Assembly: GCA_014381505.1 (NCBI GenBank)
Contig: JACNLK010000045.1
Span: forward strand, 13,565-49,469
From: Candidatus Desulfatifera sulfidica
Lineage (GTDB): Bacteria > Desulfobacterota > Desulfobulbia > Desulfobulbales > Desulfocapsaceae
Direction: 5' to 3'
DNA length: 35,905 nucleotides
The notes below the pieces were generated by a model. That model did no database searches, was not told the origin of the DNA, and was given only the letters and a program-made list of their open reading frames with translations. Within the stretch, counting starts at the first letter, position 1. Every line of letters begins with the position of its first letter. The translations under genes were made by a program, and so were the position numbers. Positions 1 to 19,488 of this stretch are shown here, in pieces.

Positions 1-79
1 TTTACCACGAGACATGAAACCCTTGATCGGGAATTATATCTTCGTATTTCGGATCAAGGGTTTCATGTCTCGTGGTAAA
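1..79. repeat. Perfect inverted repeat, 28-bp arms (1-28 and 52-79), 23-bp spacer
   Basis: TTTACCACGAGACATGAAACCCTTGATC is the exact reverse complement of GATCAAGGGTTTCATGTCTCGTGGTAAA; the left arm begins at base 1. Confidence 0.95.
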
Positions 80-1263
80 TGGAGGGCAAGACCCTGATCC
101 TGGAGCCCGGAGCCCTGCGTGCCTTTCTCATGGGCCGGGATGAGCGGATCAAGACCCTTGAGATCTCTCTGGCCAGACCCGGGGAGTCGGTCAGGATGAT
201 CTGTGTCAAGGATGTGATTGCCCCCTGGTGGAAGATGGGTGATTTCCAATCCGGCGCGGGACGGCTTCAGGTGCTGCGCAACTGTGCTGTGGTCACCTGT
301 GGCCGGATTGTCGGTTTTCAGGAGGGGATCATCGATATGAGCGGACCCGGGGCCCTTTATTCGCCCTTTGCCGGGACCATCAATATCGTCCTTGAGGTTG
401 AGGTGGTTGCGGGCCTGAGTCCCCATGCCCATGAAGAGGTGCTCAGAGAGGCCGGTCTGGCCGCGGCAACATTTGCGGGCCAGCCCCTCAGGGATGTGGA
501 GGCGGATGAGATCCTGACCTGGCCGTCTGAGGCAGACTCGTCAATGTTTTCTCACCTGCCTCGGGTGGCCTATCTCTACCCCCTGCTCAGCCAGGGCCTG
601 TTGCATGACACCTATGTCCTGGGCGAAAACGCCAATGCGGGATTGCCCAGACTCATATCCCCGGCCCAACTCCTGGACGGGGCCATCATCTCGGGTAATT
701 GTGTCTCCGCCTGTGACAAAAACACCACCTATCATCACCAGCACAATCCCATCCTCCACGAGCTCTGCCGTGAGCATGGGCAGAGCCTGAATTTTGTCGG
801 CACGGTCATCACCCATGAGCCCACCCGCCTGGCCGCCAAAGAGGCCGCGGCTGCCGGGGCCAGTGAACTGATTCGCTCCCTGGCCCCGGACGGGGTGATC
901 ATCTCCAAGGAGGGCTTCGGTAACCCGGATACGGATCAGATGATGCTGATCCGCACGCTGGAACAGGCCGGGATCAAGACCGTGGCCCTCACCGATGAAT
1001 ATGCGGGTCCGGATGGCTGTTCCCAGTCCCTGGCCGATGTGACGGCTGAAGCCGATGCCATGATCTCGGTGGGCAACGCCAATGAACGAATTGTCCTGCC
1101 CCCCATGCAGCGGATATACGGACCGGTCAAGGATTTGAACAAACTGGCCGGTGCCTGTCCCCAGGGTCTGCGTCAGGACGGTAGTCTGGAGATTGAATTG
1201 CAGGGGATCATGGGGGCCACCAATCAACTGGGCTTTCAGCCGCTCAGATGCAGGGAGGTGTGA
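79..1263 (+). CDS. grdE: Glycine/sarcosine/betaine reductase component B, alpha/beta proprotein (GrdE family)
   Basis: Family motifs DERIKTLEISLARPGESVR, GRIVGFQEGIIDMSGPGA and GNCVSACDKNTTYHHQ (Asn-Cys pyruvoyl cleavage site; Cys codon 700-702). The N-terminus looks ~22 aa short of the GrdE family as I recall it. Confidence 0.9.
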   Translation: MEGKTLILEPGALRAFLMGRDERIKTLEISLARPGESVRMICVKDVIAPWWKMGDFQSGAGRLQVLRNCAVVTCGRIVGFQEGIIDMSGPGALYSPFAGTINIVLEVEVVAGLSPHAHEEVLREAGLAAATFAGQPLRDVEADEILTWPSEADSSMFSHLPRVAYLYPLLSQGLLHDTYVLGENANAGLPRLISPAQLLDGAIISGNCVSACDKNTTYHHQHNPILHELCREHGQSLNFVGTVITHEPTRLAAKEAAAAGASELIRSLAPDGVIISKEGFGNPDTDQMMLIRTLEQAGIKTVALTDEYAGPDGCSQSLADVTAEADAMISVGNANERIVLPPMQRIYGPVKDLNKLAGACPQGLRQDGSLEIELQGIMGATNQLGFQPLRCREV

Positions 1264-2591
1264 TGATGTCGGATCGATACCGGATTATTCATTGCCTGAA
1301 CCAGTTCTTCGGCGGTCTGGGTGGAGAGACCGAGGCCGGTCTGGCCCCGGTGCTGCAGAAAGGGTCCAGAGGGCCGGGCCAGCTGTTGGAGCGTCTGTTT
1401 CCCGGAGCGGAGATTGCGGCCACCCTGATCTGTGGCGATAATTATATGGCCACGAACACTGAGACGGCCCTGGAGGAGGCCCTCTCGCTGCTGGCCCCTT
1501 ATTTTACCGGGGCTGAGGCCGAGCGTCCCTCTCTCTTAATGGCCGGTCCGGCCTTTGCGGCCGGGCGCTACGGCATAGCCTGCGGGGCCATCTGTCAGGC
1601 AATAGCGGAGCGTTTCGGAATTCCGGCCCTGACCGGTATGTTTCCGGAGAATCCGGCGGTTTCCCTGTATCGGAAAGAGGTGCTGATTGTCCGCACGGCC
1701 CAGGATGTCATGGGCATGGAGGCGGCCCTGCGGGACATGGCCTCTTTGGCCGGCAAACTCCTGAGGCGGGAGGAGATCCTGCCCGAGCAGGACAACTATC
1801 TGGTCCAGGGGCGACGCAGGAATGTTTTTGATCCTGAGACCGGGGCCAGGCGGGCGGTGCGGATGCTCCTGCAAAAGATGAGACACGAGCCCTTTGTGAG
1901 CGAGTATGCCATGCCCACTTTTGATCGGGTCACCCCGGCAGCGCCGGTGGCGGATATGGGCAAGGTCAGACTGGCCCTGGTGACTTCAGGCGGAATTGTC
2001 CCTCAAGGAAACCCGGATCGGATTCAGGCCGCCAGCGCCCAAAGTTTTGGCACGTATCCCCTGAAGGGACTGAGTGCGCTGAGTTCGGTCACCCATCAGA
2101 GTGTCCATGGCGGTTACGATCCCACCTGGGCCAACGCCGATCCCAACAGAGTCCTGCCCCTGGACGCGGTCCGGGAGCTGGAGACGGAAGGGGCCTTTGG
2201 CAGCCTGCATGAATTTTATTATGCCACCGTGGGCAATGCCACTTCGGTGGCCATGGCCCGGAGCTTTGGACGGGAGATTGCTCAGCGGCTGCTGGCCGAT
2301 GGGGTGCAGGCGGTCATCCTCACCTCCACCTGAGGGACCTGTACTCGTTGCGGGGCAACGATGGTCAAAGAGATCGAGCGGGCAGGGATACCGGTGGTCC
2401 ATGCCTGTTCCATCGTTCCCATTTCCCTGACGGTGGGAAGCAATCGTATCCTCCCCACCATTGCCATCCCCCATCCTTTTGGTGATCCGGAAATGGGTTT
2501 GGCCGAAGAAAAGGGTCTGCGCAGAGCCTTGGTGGAGAAAGGGCTCAAGGCCCTGGCTACCGGGATTGAAGGGCAGACCGTTTTTTCCTGA
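1263..2591 (+). CDS. grdB: Glycine reductase component B gamma subunit, selenoprotein (GrdB family), with in-frame UGA (2331-2333) read as Sec
   Basis: ORFs 1248-2333 and 2361-2591 are in the same frame, joined through TGA: ...VQAVILTST-U-GTCTRCGATMVKEIERAGIPVVHACSIVPISLTVGSNRI. This gives the UxxCxxC motif of GrdB/F/H. GGGAGG ribosome-binding site before ATG 1263 (1248 and 1266 are alternative starts). Confidence 0.92.
2334..2365 (+). promoter_or_regulatory. Candidate bacterial SECIS hairpin of grdB
   Basis: CGTTGC-GGG-GCAACG (2346-2360), a perfect 6-bp stem starting 12 nt after the UGA. Confidence 0.7.
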
Positions 2592-2627
2592 CCCTGTCTT
2601 TCCTCCAGCGCAATGATCGAGGCCTTA

Positions 2628-3083
2628 TCAGCCCCGGCGGATCTCCTCCATGAGCTGTCTGATCTGCGCCTGTTTTTCATCTTCCAGTTCCAGTTCACAC
2701 ATGCCCATTTCTCTGTCCCAGACCTCGGGCGGGATCTCATCTTTGAGTTCGAGGATGTGATAGCTCTCCAGACCCAGGGCGATCCCGGCCAGGGCCCCGG
2801 CAAAACTTGGATCACCCTCCTTGAAGGTCCGGGCCATGATCTGGAGGATGGCCGGCTGGTTGACCCCGAGGACGACCAGCAGTTCATCCCGGCCATATCG
2901 TTGGGCCAGGGCCTTGACCTCATCCTGGGCTGTAAGACCTACAGCTCCGGCCGAGGTTCAGACAAAGCAGGCCGTGGATTCGTAGACGATCTCGGCCCCG
3001 CCGCTCTCCAGACAGGCGCGGATGGTGCTGCCTGAAATGTCATCCCGTTCGCCAAAGACAATGGCCTTCCTGTTTCGCAACAT
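2628..3083 (-). CDS. grdA: Glycine reductase selenoprotein A (GrdA), with in-frame UGA (2958-2960) read as Sec
   Basis: Minus-strand ORFs 2958-3164 and 2628-2837 share a frame and join through TGA: MLRNRKAIVFGERDDISGSTIRACLESGGAEIVYESTACFV-U-TSAGAVGLTAQDEVKALAQRYGRDELLVVLGVNQPAILQIMARTFKEGDPSFAGALAGIALGLESYH... CFVU matches the GrdA active site. AGGAGA ribosome-binding site upstream. Confidence 0.93.
2928..2957 (-). promoter_or_regulatory. Candidate bacterial SECIS hairpin of grdA
   Basis: Minus strand GCTGTA-GGTCT-TACAGC (2945-2929), starting 12 nt after the UGA; the GGUCU apical loop resembles the E. coli fdhF SECIS loop. Confidence 0.75.
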
Positions 3084-3180
3084 AGAGATTTCTCCTGATC
3101 TGTGGTGATGGATCTTATGGGTACCTTGTGATGAGACAAGAGGCTGAGGGCCCCCTTGGGTCAATGTTTCCCTGCCTCCG

Positions 3181-4698
3181 TTACCCCGTTTTCTTGATCG
3201 GCGGGAGCCTGGGGTTGCGCTCCAGGACGAAGGAGACCCCGTCCAGCAGATCGGTGCAGCGGTTCAGAAACAGGCTGGCCCGGGACAGGAACATGGCCCG
3301 CCGGATTTCACCTCGGGCCATGGCTGTCATGGCGTGGCCGATATAGGGCATGGCTGAGGGGATATGTCCCTGGGTGGGGGCAAATCCCACCATGCCGATT
3401 CGGCTGATCCAGGAGGCCATATCCCCCTTGTCCAGTTGCCCGGCGCGCACGGCCATGGCACCAATCTTGCGGTAGTTCTTTTGGGCCACATCTCCTGCTC
3501 CGGCAAAATCCATGATCTCCGGATTCTGCAGTTCAGCGGCATAGCGGTCAATGTCGGTACAGGTGAGGCCCATGCGTGCCAGCGGTTCCAGGAGATAATA
3601 ACGGAACACCGCCTCATCCGAGGTCCCGGCCTTGACGGGGACCGTGCCGATGCCCCCGGGAGAGAGGCGGATACAGGGACTTTTCCCGTCATCGGCTGTG
3701 ACCAGAAAGGCCATGGCCCCCAGACAGTCATCCAGGATGGGCATCTCCTGCTGGACAAAGGACTGGAACTTCATGCCCAGTTTGGCCAGGGAGCCGCCGC
3801 CCACCACTGCCACCCGTTGATGGATCCCGGCCTGGACCAGGGCTGCGGCAGTGATGATGCTTGAGGCAGGAGCTGCACAGAAGTTTTTAATATCCATGCC
3901 CGAGGCGTTCCGGCAGCCGCACATCTGGCCCATGGCCTTGGCCATCCCGCCCCCGCCCCGCTGATACCGGTCGCCGCAGGCCTCCTCGCCGCAGCTGATG
4001 ATAAAGTCGATCTCCTCGGGATTAATCGCCTCCCGTCGGCAGAGCCATTTCAGGGCCAGGGCGCCCGAGGCCTTGCTGCACAGGTTTTCCAGCAGGTTGT
4101 TAGCCTGGAGATTTTCATCATTTTTCGCTTCGCTACGCTGGTCACCCTGAAAAAACCCCCAGATTGTTTTGCCGCTCTGCAGAGGCCAAACATTTCCCCC
4201 TGGCGTTGTCGCAGGGGATTGATCGGTGCCTTCGAGTGATGCAGACGAACTCGATTGAAGGTCAGGGACAAGGTCCTTGCACAGGGGATGAGCTGCCAGT
4301 TTCTCACGCAGATTCTCCAGGTTGCTTTCATCGGTCATGATCAAGGGCGGCATCATGATATCCGCAGCCTTGAGTAAACCATAAAAGGTCTCCTGATTCA
4401 GTATCTCCCCGAACGGGCCCTGTCTGAGCAGTTCTGTCTGTTCTTCGCTTGCACGCCGTGTATACCAGGGACGCGGCAGGGTGGTTAATTCATCCGGGGT
4501 CAGGTTGCCCACAAAGACCTGGTTCGGCGGGTAGCAAACAGCCTGGCTGTATGAGCGGAGATAAGGAGCTATCCTGGCCTCTGTGTCGGGATCTCTGGTG
4601 ATCTCCCGGCGTGTCTTGGAACCGTAGCGGATGAGATCCGGGGTATGGATGAGGCAGTAGGAAAAGTTTTTAATGACTGGAAAGCGGCTCATGTGCAT
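3181..4698 (-). CDS. grdC: Glycine reductase complex component C beta subunit (GrdC)
   Basis: KNFSYCLIHTPDLIRYGS, LRSYSQAVCYPPNQVFVGNLTPDEL and CGEEACGDRYQRGGGGMAKAMGQMCGCRNASGMDIKNFCAAPA match the GrdC family. Start may be 4698 or 4692. Confidence 0.9.
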   Translation of the reverse strand: MHMSRFPVIKNFSYCLIHTPDLIRYGSKTRREITRDPDTEARIAPYLRSYSQAVCYPPNQVFVGNLTPDELTTLPRPWYTRRASEEQTELLRQGPFGEILNQETFYGLLKAADIMMPPLIMTDESNLENLREKLAAHPLCKDLVPDLQSSSSASLEGTDQSPATTPGGNVWPLQSGKTIWGFFQGDQRSEAKNDENLQANNLLENLCSKASGALALKWLCRREAINPEEIDFIISCGEEACGDRYQRGGGGMAKAMGQMCGCRNASGMDIKNFCAAPASSIITAAALVQAGIHQRVAVVGGGSLAKLGMKFQSFVQQEMPILDDCLGAMAFLVTADDGKSPCIRLSPGGIGTVPVKAGTSDEAVFRYYLLEPLARMGLTCTDIDRYAAELQNPEIMDFAGAGDVAQKNYRKIGAMAVRAGQLDKGDMASWISRIGMVGFAPTQGHIPSAMPYIGHAMTAMARGEIRRAMFLSRASLFLNRCTDLLDGVSFVLERNPRLPPIKKTG

Positions 4699-4722
4699 TC
4701 CTTTATTGGAAACGAAGACTCA

Positions 4723-4864
4723 GGGCTCCCTTGAAAAATTGTCTTTTCACCCAAGATCTGCGTTGCGCTCAAAATTTTATCCTCGGAATATCGACTAGAT
4801 GCCTGCGGTAAAATTTTTCGCACACCTTGATCTTGAACGAAAACTCTCATTCTTCAAAGGACCC
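4723..4864. repeat. ~142-bp imperfect palindromic intergenic element
   Basis: Left arm GGGCTCCCTTGAAAAATTGTCTTTTCACCCAAGATC (4723-4758) pairs imperfectly with GATCTTGAACGAAAACTCTCATTCTTCAAAGGACCC (4829-4864). Inner arms AAAATTTTA / TAAAATTTT also pair. Confidence 0.8.
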
Positions 4865-6088
4865 TCAGGCAGTAAATTGGGCTAGGATTTGAAGGACATA
4901 ATCAATGTCCCTCTCCGTGTGGCTGGCGCTAACCTGAAACCTGATCTCCTCATCACCTTGAGGAACCACCGGATAATTGAGACCGGTAACCAGGACGTTA
5001 TGCTCAAACAGGTGCCGCACCAGGGCCTTGGTTTTTACTGTATCCCTGAGCATCAAAGGAATGATGGGATGATCACCGCTCAATACCTCGTAGCCTGCAT
5101 CAAGAAGACCCGCTCTGAAACGCTTGCCCATGTGTCGCATCGTGGCCAGTAGTTCGCGCCCCTCACCACTGTCAAGCAGGGAAAGGGCTGCGGCTGCCGC
5201 AGCTGCTTCGGGCGGTGTGATTGGATTGGAGTAGATGTAGAAGGGTGAGGTCTGGCGCAGGTAATTAATTACCGGAGTTGTAGCCACCACATACCCGCCG
5301 TTTACCCCCAGAGCCTTGCCCAGAGTTGCCACCAGGATGTCGGCCCGGGCATTACTGTATTCTTCCACTCCACGACCGCTCCGGCCAAAGGCACCCACCC
5401 CGTGCGAGTCATCAATAATGGTGGTGATCCCTTCTGCAAAGACCCCCTGGTATTTCCGGCACAACGCTGTCACCTCAGCCAGGGGGACACTGTCACCTCG
5501 CATACTGAAGACTCCGTCGCTGATCACCAGCAGTCGTCTGGCCTGGCCTTGGCAGCTTTGTATCTTTTTCTCCAGATCTGCCATGTCCAGGTGCTGGTAG
5601 ACAATCTTTTGAGCCGGTCTGGCCAGGCGAATACTGTTGATGATGGAGTTGTGATTGAGGGCGTCGCTGAGGACGATGGTCTCCTCATTGATCAGCTGGG
5701 GAATCACGCCCATGATTGCGGCATAGGCGGCACTGAAGATCATGGCCTCAGGCCGGCCATGGAACTGGGCCAGTTGTTTTTCGAGCTGGACATGGGGGGC
5801 AAGGGTGCCGCTGATGAAGCGCACCGCACCCGGACCGGTTCCAAAGGCTCGGACAGCTTCTTCTTCGGCTTTGATTATCTTGGTATGGAGTGATAAGCCG
5901 AGGTATGAATTGGAATTCATGCGCAGGAACTTTCTCCTCCCGTAACCAGCGAGGGAGTAGCGGGGACCCAGGCCGTCCGTGGCCCCATGGATTGCGGTGA
6001 TCACCTTTTCGCTGCCTTTGTGGATGCCTTTCTGGTCGAGCTGCTGCAGGCTTTCGTGGAGCACCTTGCTGAGCTTGTCTTGGCCCAT
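4865..6088 (-). CDS. kbl: 2-amino-3-ketobutyrate CoA ligase (glycine C-acetyltransferase), alpha-oxoamine synthase family
   Basis: FLRMNSNSYLGLSLHTKI, GPGAVRFISGT, IDDSHGVGAFGRSGRGVEE and ATLGKALGVNGGYV (PLP lysine region) in a 407-aa PLP enzyme. AGGAGAGG ribosome-binding site. Adjacent to a threonine dehydrogenase. Confidence 0.88.
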   Translation of the reverse strand: MGQDKLSKVLHESLQQLDQKGIHKGSEKVITAIHGATDGLGPRYSLAGYGRRKFLRMNSNSYLGLSLHTKIIKAEEEAVRAFGTGPGAVRFISGTLAPHVQLEKQLAQFHGRPEAMIFSAAYAAIMGVIPQLINEETIVLSDALNHNSIINSIRLARPAQKIVYQHLDMADLEKKIQSCQGQARRLLVISDGVFSMRGDSVPLAEVTALCRKYQGVFAEGITTIIDDSHGVGAFGRSGRGVEEYSNARADILVATLGKALGVNGGYVVATTPVINYLRQTSPFYIYSNPITPPEAAAAAAALSLLDSGEGRELLATMRHMGKRFRAGLLDAGYEVLSGDHPIIPLMLRDTVKTKALVRHLFEHNVLVTGLNYPVVPQGDEEIRFQVSASHTERDIDYVLQILAQFTA

Positions 6089-6230
6089 ACCTCTCCTTTT
6101 TGGCTGTCGGTGGGTTAAGGATGTACAGTCAGTGGCTTGAAATGAATATCTTTTTGATCATCAATTTGGTTATTCATCGTCCACATAATCCAGTTGTGCC
6201 TGATGGGCAAAGTATGGCAATATTGCAGGT

Positions 6231-7184
6231 TTAAGCCGTTAGTTTTGCAGCAAGTCTGGCCAGCATATCGCTGGTCATTCTCTCCAGATCGTATTGGGAT
6301 GCCCAACCCCACTGGCTCCTGGCCGCGCTGTCATTCATGTTGTCAGGCCAGGAATCGGCAATGGCCTGGTGGATCGGATCCACCTCGTAGTTGATCGTGA
6401 ACTCCGGGATCTTCTTTTTGATGGCCGCGGCCAGTTCCATGGGGCTGAAGCTCATGGCCGTGATGTTATAGGCGTTGCGGTGCAGGAGTTTGGTCGAATC
6501 TGCCTCCATGATGCGCATCGCCGCCTGAATAGCATCAGGCATGTACATCATGTCCAGTCTGGTGTCTGGTTTGAGAGGGCAGGTGTATTTCCTCTTACGT
6601 AAGGCCGCGTAGAATATTTCGACTGCGTAATCGGTGGTGCCGCCGCCGGGCAGAGCGATATGGGAGATCAGCCCTGGGTAGCGGACGCCTCGGGTATCAA
6701 CTCTGTATCTGGTGTAATAATAATCGCAGAGGAGTTCAGCGGCGACCTTGCTTATTCCGTACATGGTGTTGGGGCGCTGAATGGTCACCTGAGGGGTGTT
6801 GATAGGGGGGGTGTCCGGGCCAAAGGCAGCGATGGAGCTGGGGTGGAAGACACCACAACCATGAGAACGGGCTATCTCCAGGACATTTTGCAGGCCGTTC
6901 ATGTTTACGTCCCAGGCCAGTTGCGGATCTTTTTCTGCCGCTACCGACAGCAGAGCGGCCAGATGATAGATGGTATTGATGTTGAACTTCTGGACGATCT
7001 CGGCAAGCGCTGTGTTATCTCTGGCGTCACAGGCAGCATAAGGTCCACCACTTCTGAGTGATTCAGTCGGCATGTTCCGGTGGCCGACGGCCACGACCTG
7101 TTCTGCACCGTATCGCTGACGCAGGGCCGGGGTCAGTTCGGAACCGATCTGGCCCGTGGCCCCTGTGACCAGTATTCGCCGCAT
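6231..7184 (-). CDS. L-threonine 3-dehydrogenase, short-chain (extended SDR, GalE-like) type
   Basis: MRRILVTGATGQIGSEL (NAD-binding GxxGxxG), HPSSIAAFGPDTP, PNTMYGISKVAAELL (YxxxK), RGVRYPGLIS and GGTTDYAVEIFYAAL are characteristic of SDR-type TDH. Start reassigned to ATG at 7184, preceded by AAAGGAGA. Confidence 0.85.
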   Translation of the reverse strand: MRRILVTGATGQIGSELTPALRQRYGAEQVVAVGHRNMPTESLRSGGPYAACDARDNTALAEIVQKFNINTIYHLAALLSVAAEKDPQLAWDVNMNGLQNVLEIARSHGCGVFHPSSIAAFGPDTPPINTPQVTIQRPNTMYGISKVAAELLCDYYYTRYRVDTRGVRYPGLISHIALPGGGTTDYAVEIFYAALRKRKYTCPLKPDTRLDMMYMPDAIQAAMRIMEADSTKLLHRNAYNITAMSFSPMELAAAIKKKIPEFTINYEVDPIHQAIADSWPDNMNDSAARSQWGWASQYDLERMTSDMLARLAAKLTA

Positions 7185-18165: not shown

Positions 18166-19488
18166 ATGGTGTGGGAAGAAGCAAAATCAGTTCTCCGGAA
18201 AACGCTCCCCGAGAATATTTTCGATCTCTGGATTGAACCGCTTAAGTGTGTTCAGAACACTAATGATCAGCTGGAACTCTCATGTCCTGATCCATATTAT
18301 CGGGCTCATCTCGCGCAGCATCATCTGGAGCAGATTCGAGAGACTGTACATGATATTGATGGCGGTCGATGTCAGGTTCTGCTCAGTGCCTCAGGCAGGA
18401 AAAGCCTCCCCCCGGCTGCTCCGGGTAATCAACTGCGGCTGCCACACGTGCCTGAAGGCGGCTCCTCTGTTCGATCCCTGCATCCCCGTTATACCTTCGA
18501 TTCCTTTATGGTTGGTGAAAGTAACTGCCTGGCCCAGTCGGCCTGTCGTGCCGTGGTTAACGGGGATGACAGCATTGGTCCCTGTCTTTATATCAACAGT
18601 TCCACGGGGCTGGGCAAGAGTCATCTCACCCATGCCGTGGCCCATCGCATCCTGGCCACCTCCCCCATGACTCGACTTCATTATCTGACCGCTCAGCAGT
18701 TTTCAGGCGAGATGGTGCGAGAAATTAAAGGCAACACCATGGACCGCTTCAAGCGGAAGTATCATGAATGTTGCGATATTTTACTGGTTGAGGATATTCA
18801 TGCCCTGACTGGTAAAAAGAAAACCCAGGAAGAGCTCAATGAGCTGCTTGATTCTCTGATCAAAGGTGGTAAACGGGTCGTTTTTACTGCCAAAAGTGCA
18901 CCTCGGGAACTGCTGGGGATTGATAATGATCTGCGTTCCCGCATGACTGCGGGGCTGGTCACTCGAATTGATGCACCGGATATTTCCACTCGACGACGTA
19001 TTATTCAACACAAGGCCGCTCTCCATGGTCTTGATCTGGCTGAAGAACATTGTGATTATATTGCTCAACATATTCAGGGAGATGTCCGCCAGATTGAGTC
19101 GGCCCTGGTGGCTATTCGTGCCCAGTCTGCCCTTTGTCAGGGAGACCTGAAGATGGAATGTATCCGTGAGACCGTGGAGAGCATTGTCGGGGTTCCGCAG
19201 ATCCTGACTACAGCCATGATTGGTGAGTTTGTCGGTGGTCAGTTTAAGGTCGGTGTTCAGGAGATGCAGTCACGCTCCCGTAAACAGGCAGTGGTTTTCC
19301 CCCGACAGGTGGCGATGTACCTGAGTCGTCAGCATACGCAAGAATCTCTGGCTGATATCGGGCGTGCATTTAACCGTGACCATGCCACCGTTCTTCATTC
19401 GATTAAGGTTGTGACTGAGCGCTCTTTGCGAGATCATTCCGTGTCTGCCCAGATTGATTTGCTTAACAAAAAGATGGAGCGGATGTAG
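18166..19488 (+). CDS. dnaA: Chromosomal replication initiator DnaA (divergent)
   Basis: Domain I (WEEAKSVLRKTLPENIFDLWIEPL), AAA+ Walker A-like NSSTGLGKSHLTHAV, Walker B LLVEDIHALTGKKKTQEEL, LRSRMTAGLV, and domain IV QVAMYLSRQHTQESLADIGRAFNRDHATVLHSIK. Confidence 0.92.
   Translation: MVWEEAKSVLRKTLPENIFDLWIEPLKCVQNTNDQLELSCPDPYYRAHLAQHHLEQIRETVHDIDGGRCQVLLSASGRKSLPPAAPGNQLRLPHVPEGGSSVRSLHPRYTFDSFMVGESNCLAQSACRAVVNGDDSIGPCLYINSSTGLGKSHLTHAVAHRILATSPMTRLHYLTAQQFSGEMVREIKGNTMDRFKRKYHECCDILLVEDIHALTGKKKTQEELNELLDSLIKGGKRVVFTAKSAPRELLGIDNDLRSRMTAGLVTRIDAPDISTRRRIIQHKAALHGLDLAEEHCDYIAQHIQGDVRQIESALVAIRAQSALCQGDLKMECIRETVESIVGVPQILTTAMIGEFVGGQFKVGVQEMQSRSRKQAVVFPRQVAMYLSRQHTQESLADIGRAFNRDHATVLHSIKVVTERSLRDHSVSAQIDLLNKKMERM

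Follow-up and report, generated by a model that had tools for sequence, protein, structure and literature searches.

Where does the degradation of threonine lead when the genes for it stand beside a glycine reductase that has no GrdD subunit? The question is raised by a stretch of 35,905 nucleotides from Candidatus Desulfatifera sulfidica (hereafter the window; positions 13565-49469 of contig JACNLK010000045.1, assembly GCA_014381505.1, with its right end at the contig end), in which grdE-grdB on the forward strand converge on tdh-kbl-grdC-grdA on the reverse strand between positions 79 and 7184. In canonical glycine reductase, protein C consists of GrdC and a PlsX-like GrdD, the latter releasing acetyl phosphate. 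Here, we propose that the locus is on balance probably a selenium-dependent threonine-degradation module based on a glycine reductase without GrdD, with formation of a second acetyl unit. The proposal draws on the gene content and selenocysteine (Sec) codons of the locus, the Sec machinery of the source genome, the co-conservation of the genes in relatives, and the absence of matches over cut-off to GrdD and acetate kinase (AckA), all of which are observed in the sequences.

Gene content of the locus

The six genes and their order, as named in a first-pass annotation made from the DNA letters alone, are borne out by the translations and profile matches. The genes and the elements serving their Sec codons are the following:

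79-1263, + strand: grdE, glycine reductase protein B alpha proprotein (PF09338, 462 bits), 5' end lost
about 1263-2591, + strand: grdB, selenoprotein B (TIGR01918, over cut-off), first ATG of the open reading frame at 1248
2334-2371, + strand: Sec insertion sequence (SECIS) of grdB, directly 3' of the Sec TGA (Rfam RF01990 SECIS_4, 60.2 bits, gathering cut-off 38)
2628-3083, - strand: grdA, selenoprotein A, 151 amino acids (NF040748, 147 bits, cut-off 130)
2915-2962, - strand: hairpin just 3' of the grdA Sec codon, probable SECIS (-20.8 kcal/mol, z -2.48)
3181-4698, - strand: grdC, protein C beta (NF040746, 540 bits, cut-off 450)
4865-6088, - strand: kbl, glycine C-acetyltransferase (2-amino-3-ketobutyrate CoA ligase), divergent branch (PRK06939, 351 bits)
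6231-7184, - strand: tdh, NAD-dependent L-threonine 3-dehydrogenase of the short-chain dehydrogenase/reductase (SDR) type, 317 amino acids (phmmer, 422 bits to 7cgv and 383 bits to 7ol1)

The SDR-type identity of the threonine dehydrogenase was confirmed by its matches to 18 solved SDR-family chains, most of them L-threonine dehydrogenases, and the YxxxK motif is present as YGISK. The best solved match of KBL is 3tqx, itself a KBL, and in a survey set of 258 genomes of the order, Desulfobulbales, KBL directly adjoins TDH in 29 of the 30 loci with this TDH, the exception being a stretch that ends just after tdh. An in-frame TGA in the kbl of one relative (G062) was considered as a sign of a new selenoprotein and rejected, as it is a normal stop.

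Both selenoprotein genes carry their Sec codon in frame: in grdB the TGA lies at 2331-2333 within UGTCTRC (UxxCxxC), and in grdA at 2958-2960 within CFVU (CxxU), the Sec position being conserved in relatives in each case. The hairpin in grdA gave no Rfam match. The check for Sec machinery in the source genome (G000) turned out positive, with SelB over cut-off at 376 bits and tRNA-Sec at 71 bits in addition to the SECIS_4 element. The processing Cys pair of GrdE is present (Cys208/212 in NCVSACDK), and a search for solved structural relatives of GrdB gave none.

The presence of grdE was correctly called in the first-pass annotation, and its start was placed about 22 residues too late, reflecting a truncation at a scaffold gap. 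This gap of 10 N, with poly-G before it, lies directly 5' of the window start (L019, 13390-13564), and bases 1-79 of the window form an inverted repeat with 34-nucleotide arms and an in-frame stop. The inverted repeat was rejected as a regulatory hairpin because it adjoins the scaffold gap and has no other copy in the genome; we take it for an assembly fold-back that hides the grdE start. Owing to the gap and the fold-back, about 22 N-terminal residues of GrdE and anything upstream are absent from the assembly. In a scan for promoters and terminators, signals were at or below chance level.

Co-conservation of tdh-kbl with grdC

Across the survey set, GrdC was found in 20 genomes, the SDR-type TDH in 36, and both in 13. 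TDH is present in 13 of the 20 GrdC-positive genomes versus 23 of the 238 without GrdC (Fisher p=3.5e-8; p=2.9e-4 when counted by genus; both values uncorrected for descent). Of the 13 genomes with both, six, representing five families and two orientations, have tdh no more than about 3 kb from grdC: on the same strand in G000, G651 (L032) and G645, and divergently in G514, G518 and G639. By chance, such proximity would be expected at about 0.002 per genome. Neither GrdC nor TDH is present in the sister species (G001).

The arrangement also occurs outside the order. In a Rhodospirillales metagenome-assembled genome (MAG; L045), tdh-kbl-grdC-grdA converge on grdE-grdB, and the slot of kbl is taken by a KBL of another branch, which shares only 35% identity with that of the window and passes the glycine C-acetyltransferase cut-off. 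A further MAG from outside the order (L044) carries tdh-grdC-grdA. In the GrdC tree these two form a starred sister branch to all members of the order, so tdh and grdC may have become linked early on and been separated later. The earlier proposal of a link between TDH-KBL and glycine reductase, to be sought as a conserved neighbourhood, is thus upheld by the co-occurrence, by the linked genomes within the order and by the two loci outside it.

In one linked relative, the genes upstream of tdh-kbl-grdC-grdA (L032, 997-7486) encode an amino-acid dehydrogenase of the ELFV type and an AMP-ligase, together with a 2-oxoacid:ferredoxin oxidoreductase made up of three genes, which suggests a wider amino-acid fermentation cluster.

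Absence of GrdD and features of GrdC

A profile search for GrdD in the source genome gave only a PlsX-like match of 24 bits. No GrdD over cut-off was found in the 15 GrdC-positive genomes of the order that were tested (G000, G033, G034, G161, G463, G475, G512, G540, G543, G544, G554, G594, G628, G630 and G651), which include 99-100% complete ones (G161 being 100% complete), nor in seven GrdC-positive genomes outside the order. As a positive control, the same model finds GrdD at 493-530 bits in five of 395 genomes of the phylum. In relatives whose flanks are intact, grdE is not accompanied by a grdD. Protein C in its two-subunit form was therefore not recovered: GrdC scores over cut-off, and GrdD is absent from the source genome and from 21 other GrdC-positive genomes.

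The AlphaFold model of GrdC (predicted local distance difference test 86, predicted template-modelling score 0.90) was matched by Foldseek to thiolases and KASIII enzymes (probability 1.00, template-modelling score by target 0.4-0.57), and the invariant Cys274 aligns with the FabH nucleophile in a profile alignment. Identity to a GrdD-containing Desulfovibrio-like set is only about 40% for GrdC and GrdA, against 49-54% for the B subunits. A special GrdC cysteine in place of GrdD was rejected, as Cys207, Cys241 and Cys260 are largely conserved in the clade but variable in some members, and Cys236 and Cys274 are shared with canonical GrdC, which leaves no catalytic change peculiar to the clade.

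More distant GrdD-less Grd sets were seen in Actinomycetota, Tectomicrobia and deltaproteobacterial MAGs (L039-L043). The GrdE of three of these (L041-L043) is without the processing Cys pair, and their substrate is for that reason probably one other than glycine. In Desulfocapsa-like genomes, an AMP-ligase of 614 amino acids lies just upstream of grdC, preceded by an AMP-ligase/acyltransferase of 956-960 amino acids with an N-terminus resembling an acyl carrier domain (L025 4468-9194; L027 510-2351; L029 4239-8962; L038 5088-9811); these AMP-ligases are candidate acyl-activating partners of GrdC.

Absence of acetate kinase

AckA was not matched in the source genome (94% complete) or in five of the 11 other GrdC-positive relatives tested, namely G033 (99%), G594 (99%), G628 (97%), G639 and G651. 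Together, the absence of GrdD and that of AckA remove the support for an acetyl-phosphate and ATP ending in this organism. Of the interpretation given in the first-pass annotation, the connection of threonine to glycine reductase is therefore supported, while the conversion of glycine to acetyl phosphate is not, neither GrdD nor AckA having been found in the source genome.

Proposed pathway

The reactions set out here are predicted from the chemistry of the protein families, and the genes are presumed to be co-transcribed. TDH would oxidise threonine to 2-amino-3-ketobutyrate with the formation of NADH, and KBL would use coenzyme A (CoA) to split this into glycine and acetyl-CoA. The selenoenzyme GrdE/GrdB would then activate glycine, releasing ammonia and loading the selenocysteine of GrdA with a carboxymethyl group, whose two carbons protein C, consisting of GrdC alone, would take over in acetyl form. 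An acetyl-thioester on Cys274 of GrdC could finally be handed to CoA, giving a second acetyl-CoA. The thiolase/KASIII fold of GrdC and its retained nucleophilic Cys make CoA the most likely acceptor, an assignment that we regard as plausible, with somewhat less than even confidence. In full, and more tentatively, we suggest that this GrdD-less lineage ends in acetyl-CoA: GrdC may be a KASIII-like acetyltransferase that takes acetyl from GrdA, and coupling to TDH-KBL may give two acetyl-CoA per threonine, with neither ATP nor an acetate-kinase step involved. The module would serve as an electron sink and a source of acetyl-CoA, not as an acetate-kinase route to ATP.

Alternative explanations

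Several observations weigh against this proposal and lend themselves to other explanations. The source genome is a 94% complete MAG of 2.08 Mb with a gap adjoining grdE; KBL is under curated cut-offs (PRK06939, 351 versus 460 bits; a second model, 318 versus 493); Cys236 and Cys274 also occur in canonical GrdC and are no special adaptation; and work on Eubacterium acidaminophilum reportedly mapped the acetyl-accepting thiol of protein C to GrdD, not GrdC. Glycine could be turned into acetyl phosphate and then into ATP via acetate kinase as in Clostridium, with GrdD and AckA lost to an incomplete MAG, for which the assembly gap would leave room, or replaced by unrelated enzymes, e.g. PlsX or a different kinase. 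This is the canonical biochemistry, acetyl phosphate is the product of the Desulfovibrio desulfuricans glycine reductase (PMC7547702), and AckA is present in six of the 12 GrdC-positive genomes tested. We consider it unlikely, however, since GrdD is missing from every GrdC-positive genome tested within and outside the order, some of them complete or nearly so, neither the source genome nor three relatives of high completeness (two at 99%, one at 97%) have AckA, and intact flanks next to grdE hold no grdD.

The threonine-degradation module also has to be weighed against readings in which tdh-kbl plays another part. In seven of the 20 GrdC-positive genomes of the order there is no TDH, so GrdC functions in its absence too, and the reductive glycine pathway is known from this phylum (PMC7547702, PMC12827605); Grd might then be an assimilatory glycine-to-acetyl step of that type, with TDH-KBL nearby since both handle glycine, perhaps running toward threonine or balancing glycine. 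That tdh-kbl and grdC recur as neighbours across several families, in either of two orientations, and that an amino-acid dehydrogenase and a 2-oxoacid:ferredoxin oxidoreductase, which point to amino-acid catabolism, lie upstream in L032, makes this quite improbable in our view. Even less credence is given to the possibility that GrdE/GrdB reduce another small substrate, sarcosine or some other amine, and that the tdh-kbl neighbourhood is incidental, although the score of GrdB is 545 for the sarcosine model and 530 for the glycine model, under both cut-offs. The same order of scores is shown by the GrdB of the GrdD-containing Desulfovibrio-like set (650 sarcosine versus 628 glycine), to whose glycine-type GrdE and GrdB those of the window are 49% and 54% identical, and the processing Cys pair kept in GrdE is absent from the FarE (fluoroacetate) and betaine types (PMC10838667). 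Considering these points and that TDH-KBL, recurrently linked, makes glycine, glycine is the most likely substrate of GrdE/GrdB as far as comparison with relatives can indicate. With regard to the earlier caution that GrdE/GrdB could be of the sarcosine or betaine type, the Cys pair and the identities favour the glycine type, while glycine and sarcosine are not told apart by the model scores.

Relation to known systems

Glycine reductase in Desulfobacterota has already been published (PMC7547702, PMC12827605). The D. desulfuricans glycine reductase operon (PMC7547702) and a Desulfobacterota genome in our set (L147/G386) have GrdE, GrdB (Sec), GrdC and GrdA (Sec) in common with the window, the B subunits being 49-54% identical. 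The cluster of the latter, grdE-grdB-trxB-grdC-grdD-trxA-grdA, matches the published operon in content; it holds GrdD, TrxA and TrxB in one operon, with AckA in the genome and no tdh-kbl in the stretch covered, whereas in the window grdD is absent and two halves converge. For Clostridium sticklandii, a Gram-positive clostridium, the part of the report available to us (PMC3091704) describes the same route from threonine through 2-amino-3-ketobutyrate to glycine and acetyl-CoA via TDH, with glycine as electron acceptor, but as a pathway and not as a tdh-kbl-grd gene cluster. Closest in subunits are the GrdEBCA clusters of Lost City MAGs, for which, in the portion of the paper at hand (PMC9469722), four subunits and no D are named as in the window; the genes linked to these are selA, selB and trxA instead of tdh-kbl, and acetyl phosphate is assumed with the missing GrdD undiscussed.

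A literature search, in which coverage of subscription journals was slight, returned no publication on a tdh-kbl-grd cluster or a GrdD-less complex. The separate parts have thus been published, and the conserved coupling and the GrdD-less architecture appear to be new. Should GrdC alone complete the reaction, the textbook picture of five subunits, acetyl phosphate and ATP would not hold for an entire branch of bacteria from the environment, and surveys in which 'glycine reductase' is scored as production of acetyl phosphate or ATP, or as a complete reductive glycine pathway, might then have to be corrected. Threonine is a common amino acid in sediment protein, and the conserved TDH-KBL link offers a testable route for its use by sulfur-cycle bacteria.

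Other features of the window

One further element lies within the locus, between kbl and grdC:

4716-4867: dispersed palindromic repeat (repeat search, alignment, folding z -6.0)

The repeat is near-perfect and 142-150 bp long, with about 40 copies elsewhere in the genome at roughly 75-93% identity; it is MITE- or REP-like (miniature inverted-repeat transposable element; repetitive extragenic palindrome) and stands outside the pathway. Positions 7385-35329 hold genes unrelated to the pathway, including a nucleotidase, mfd, bamA, Hsp90, a kdo transferase, ychF, holB, metG and others, and a DnaA-like ATPase is encoded at 18166-19488 in this unrelated part.

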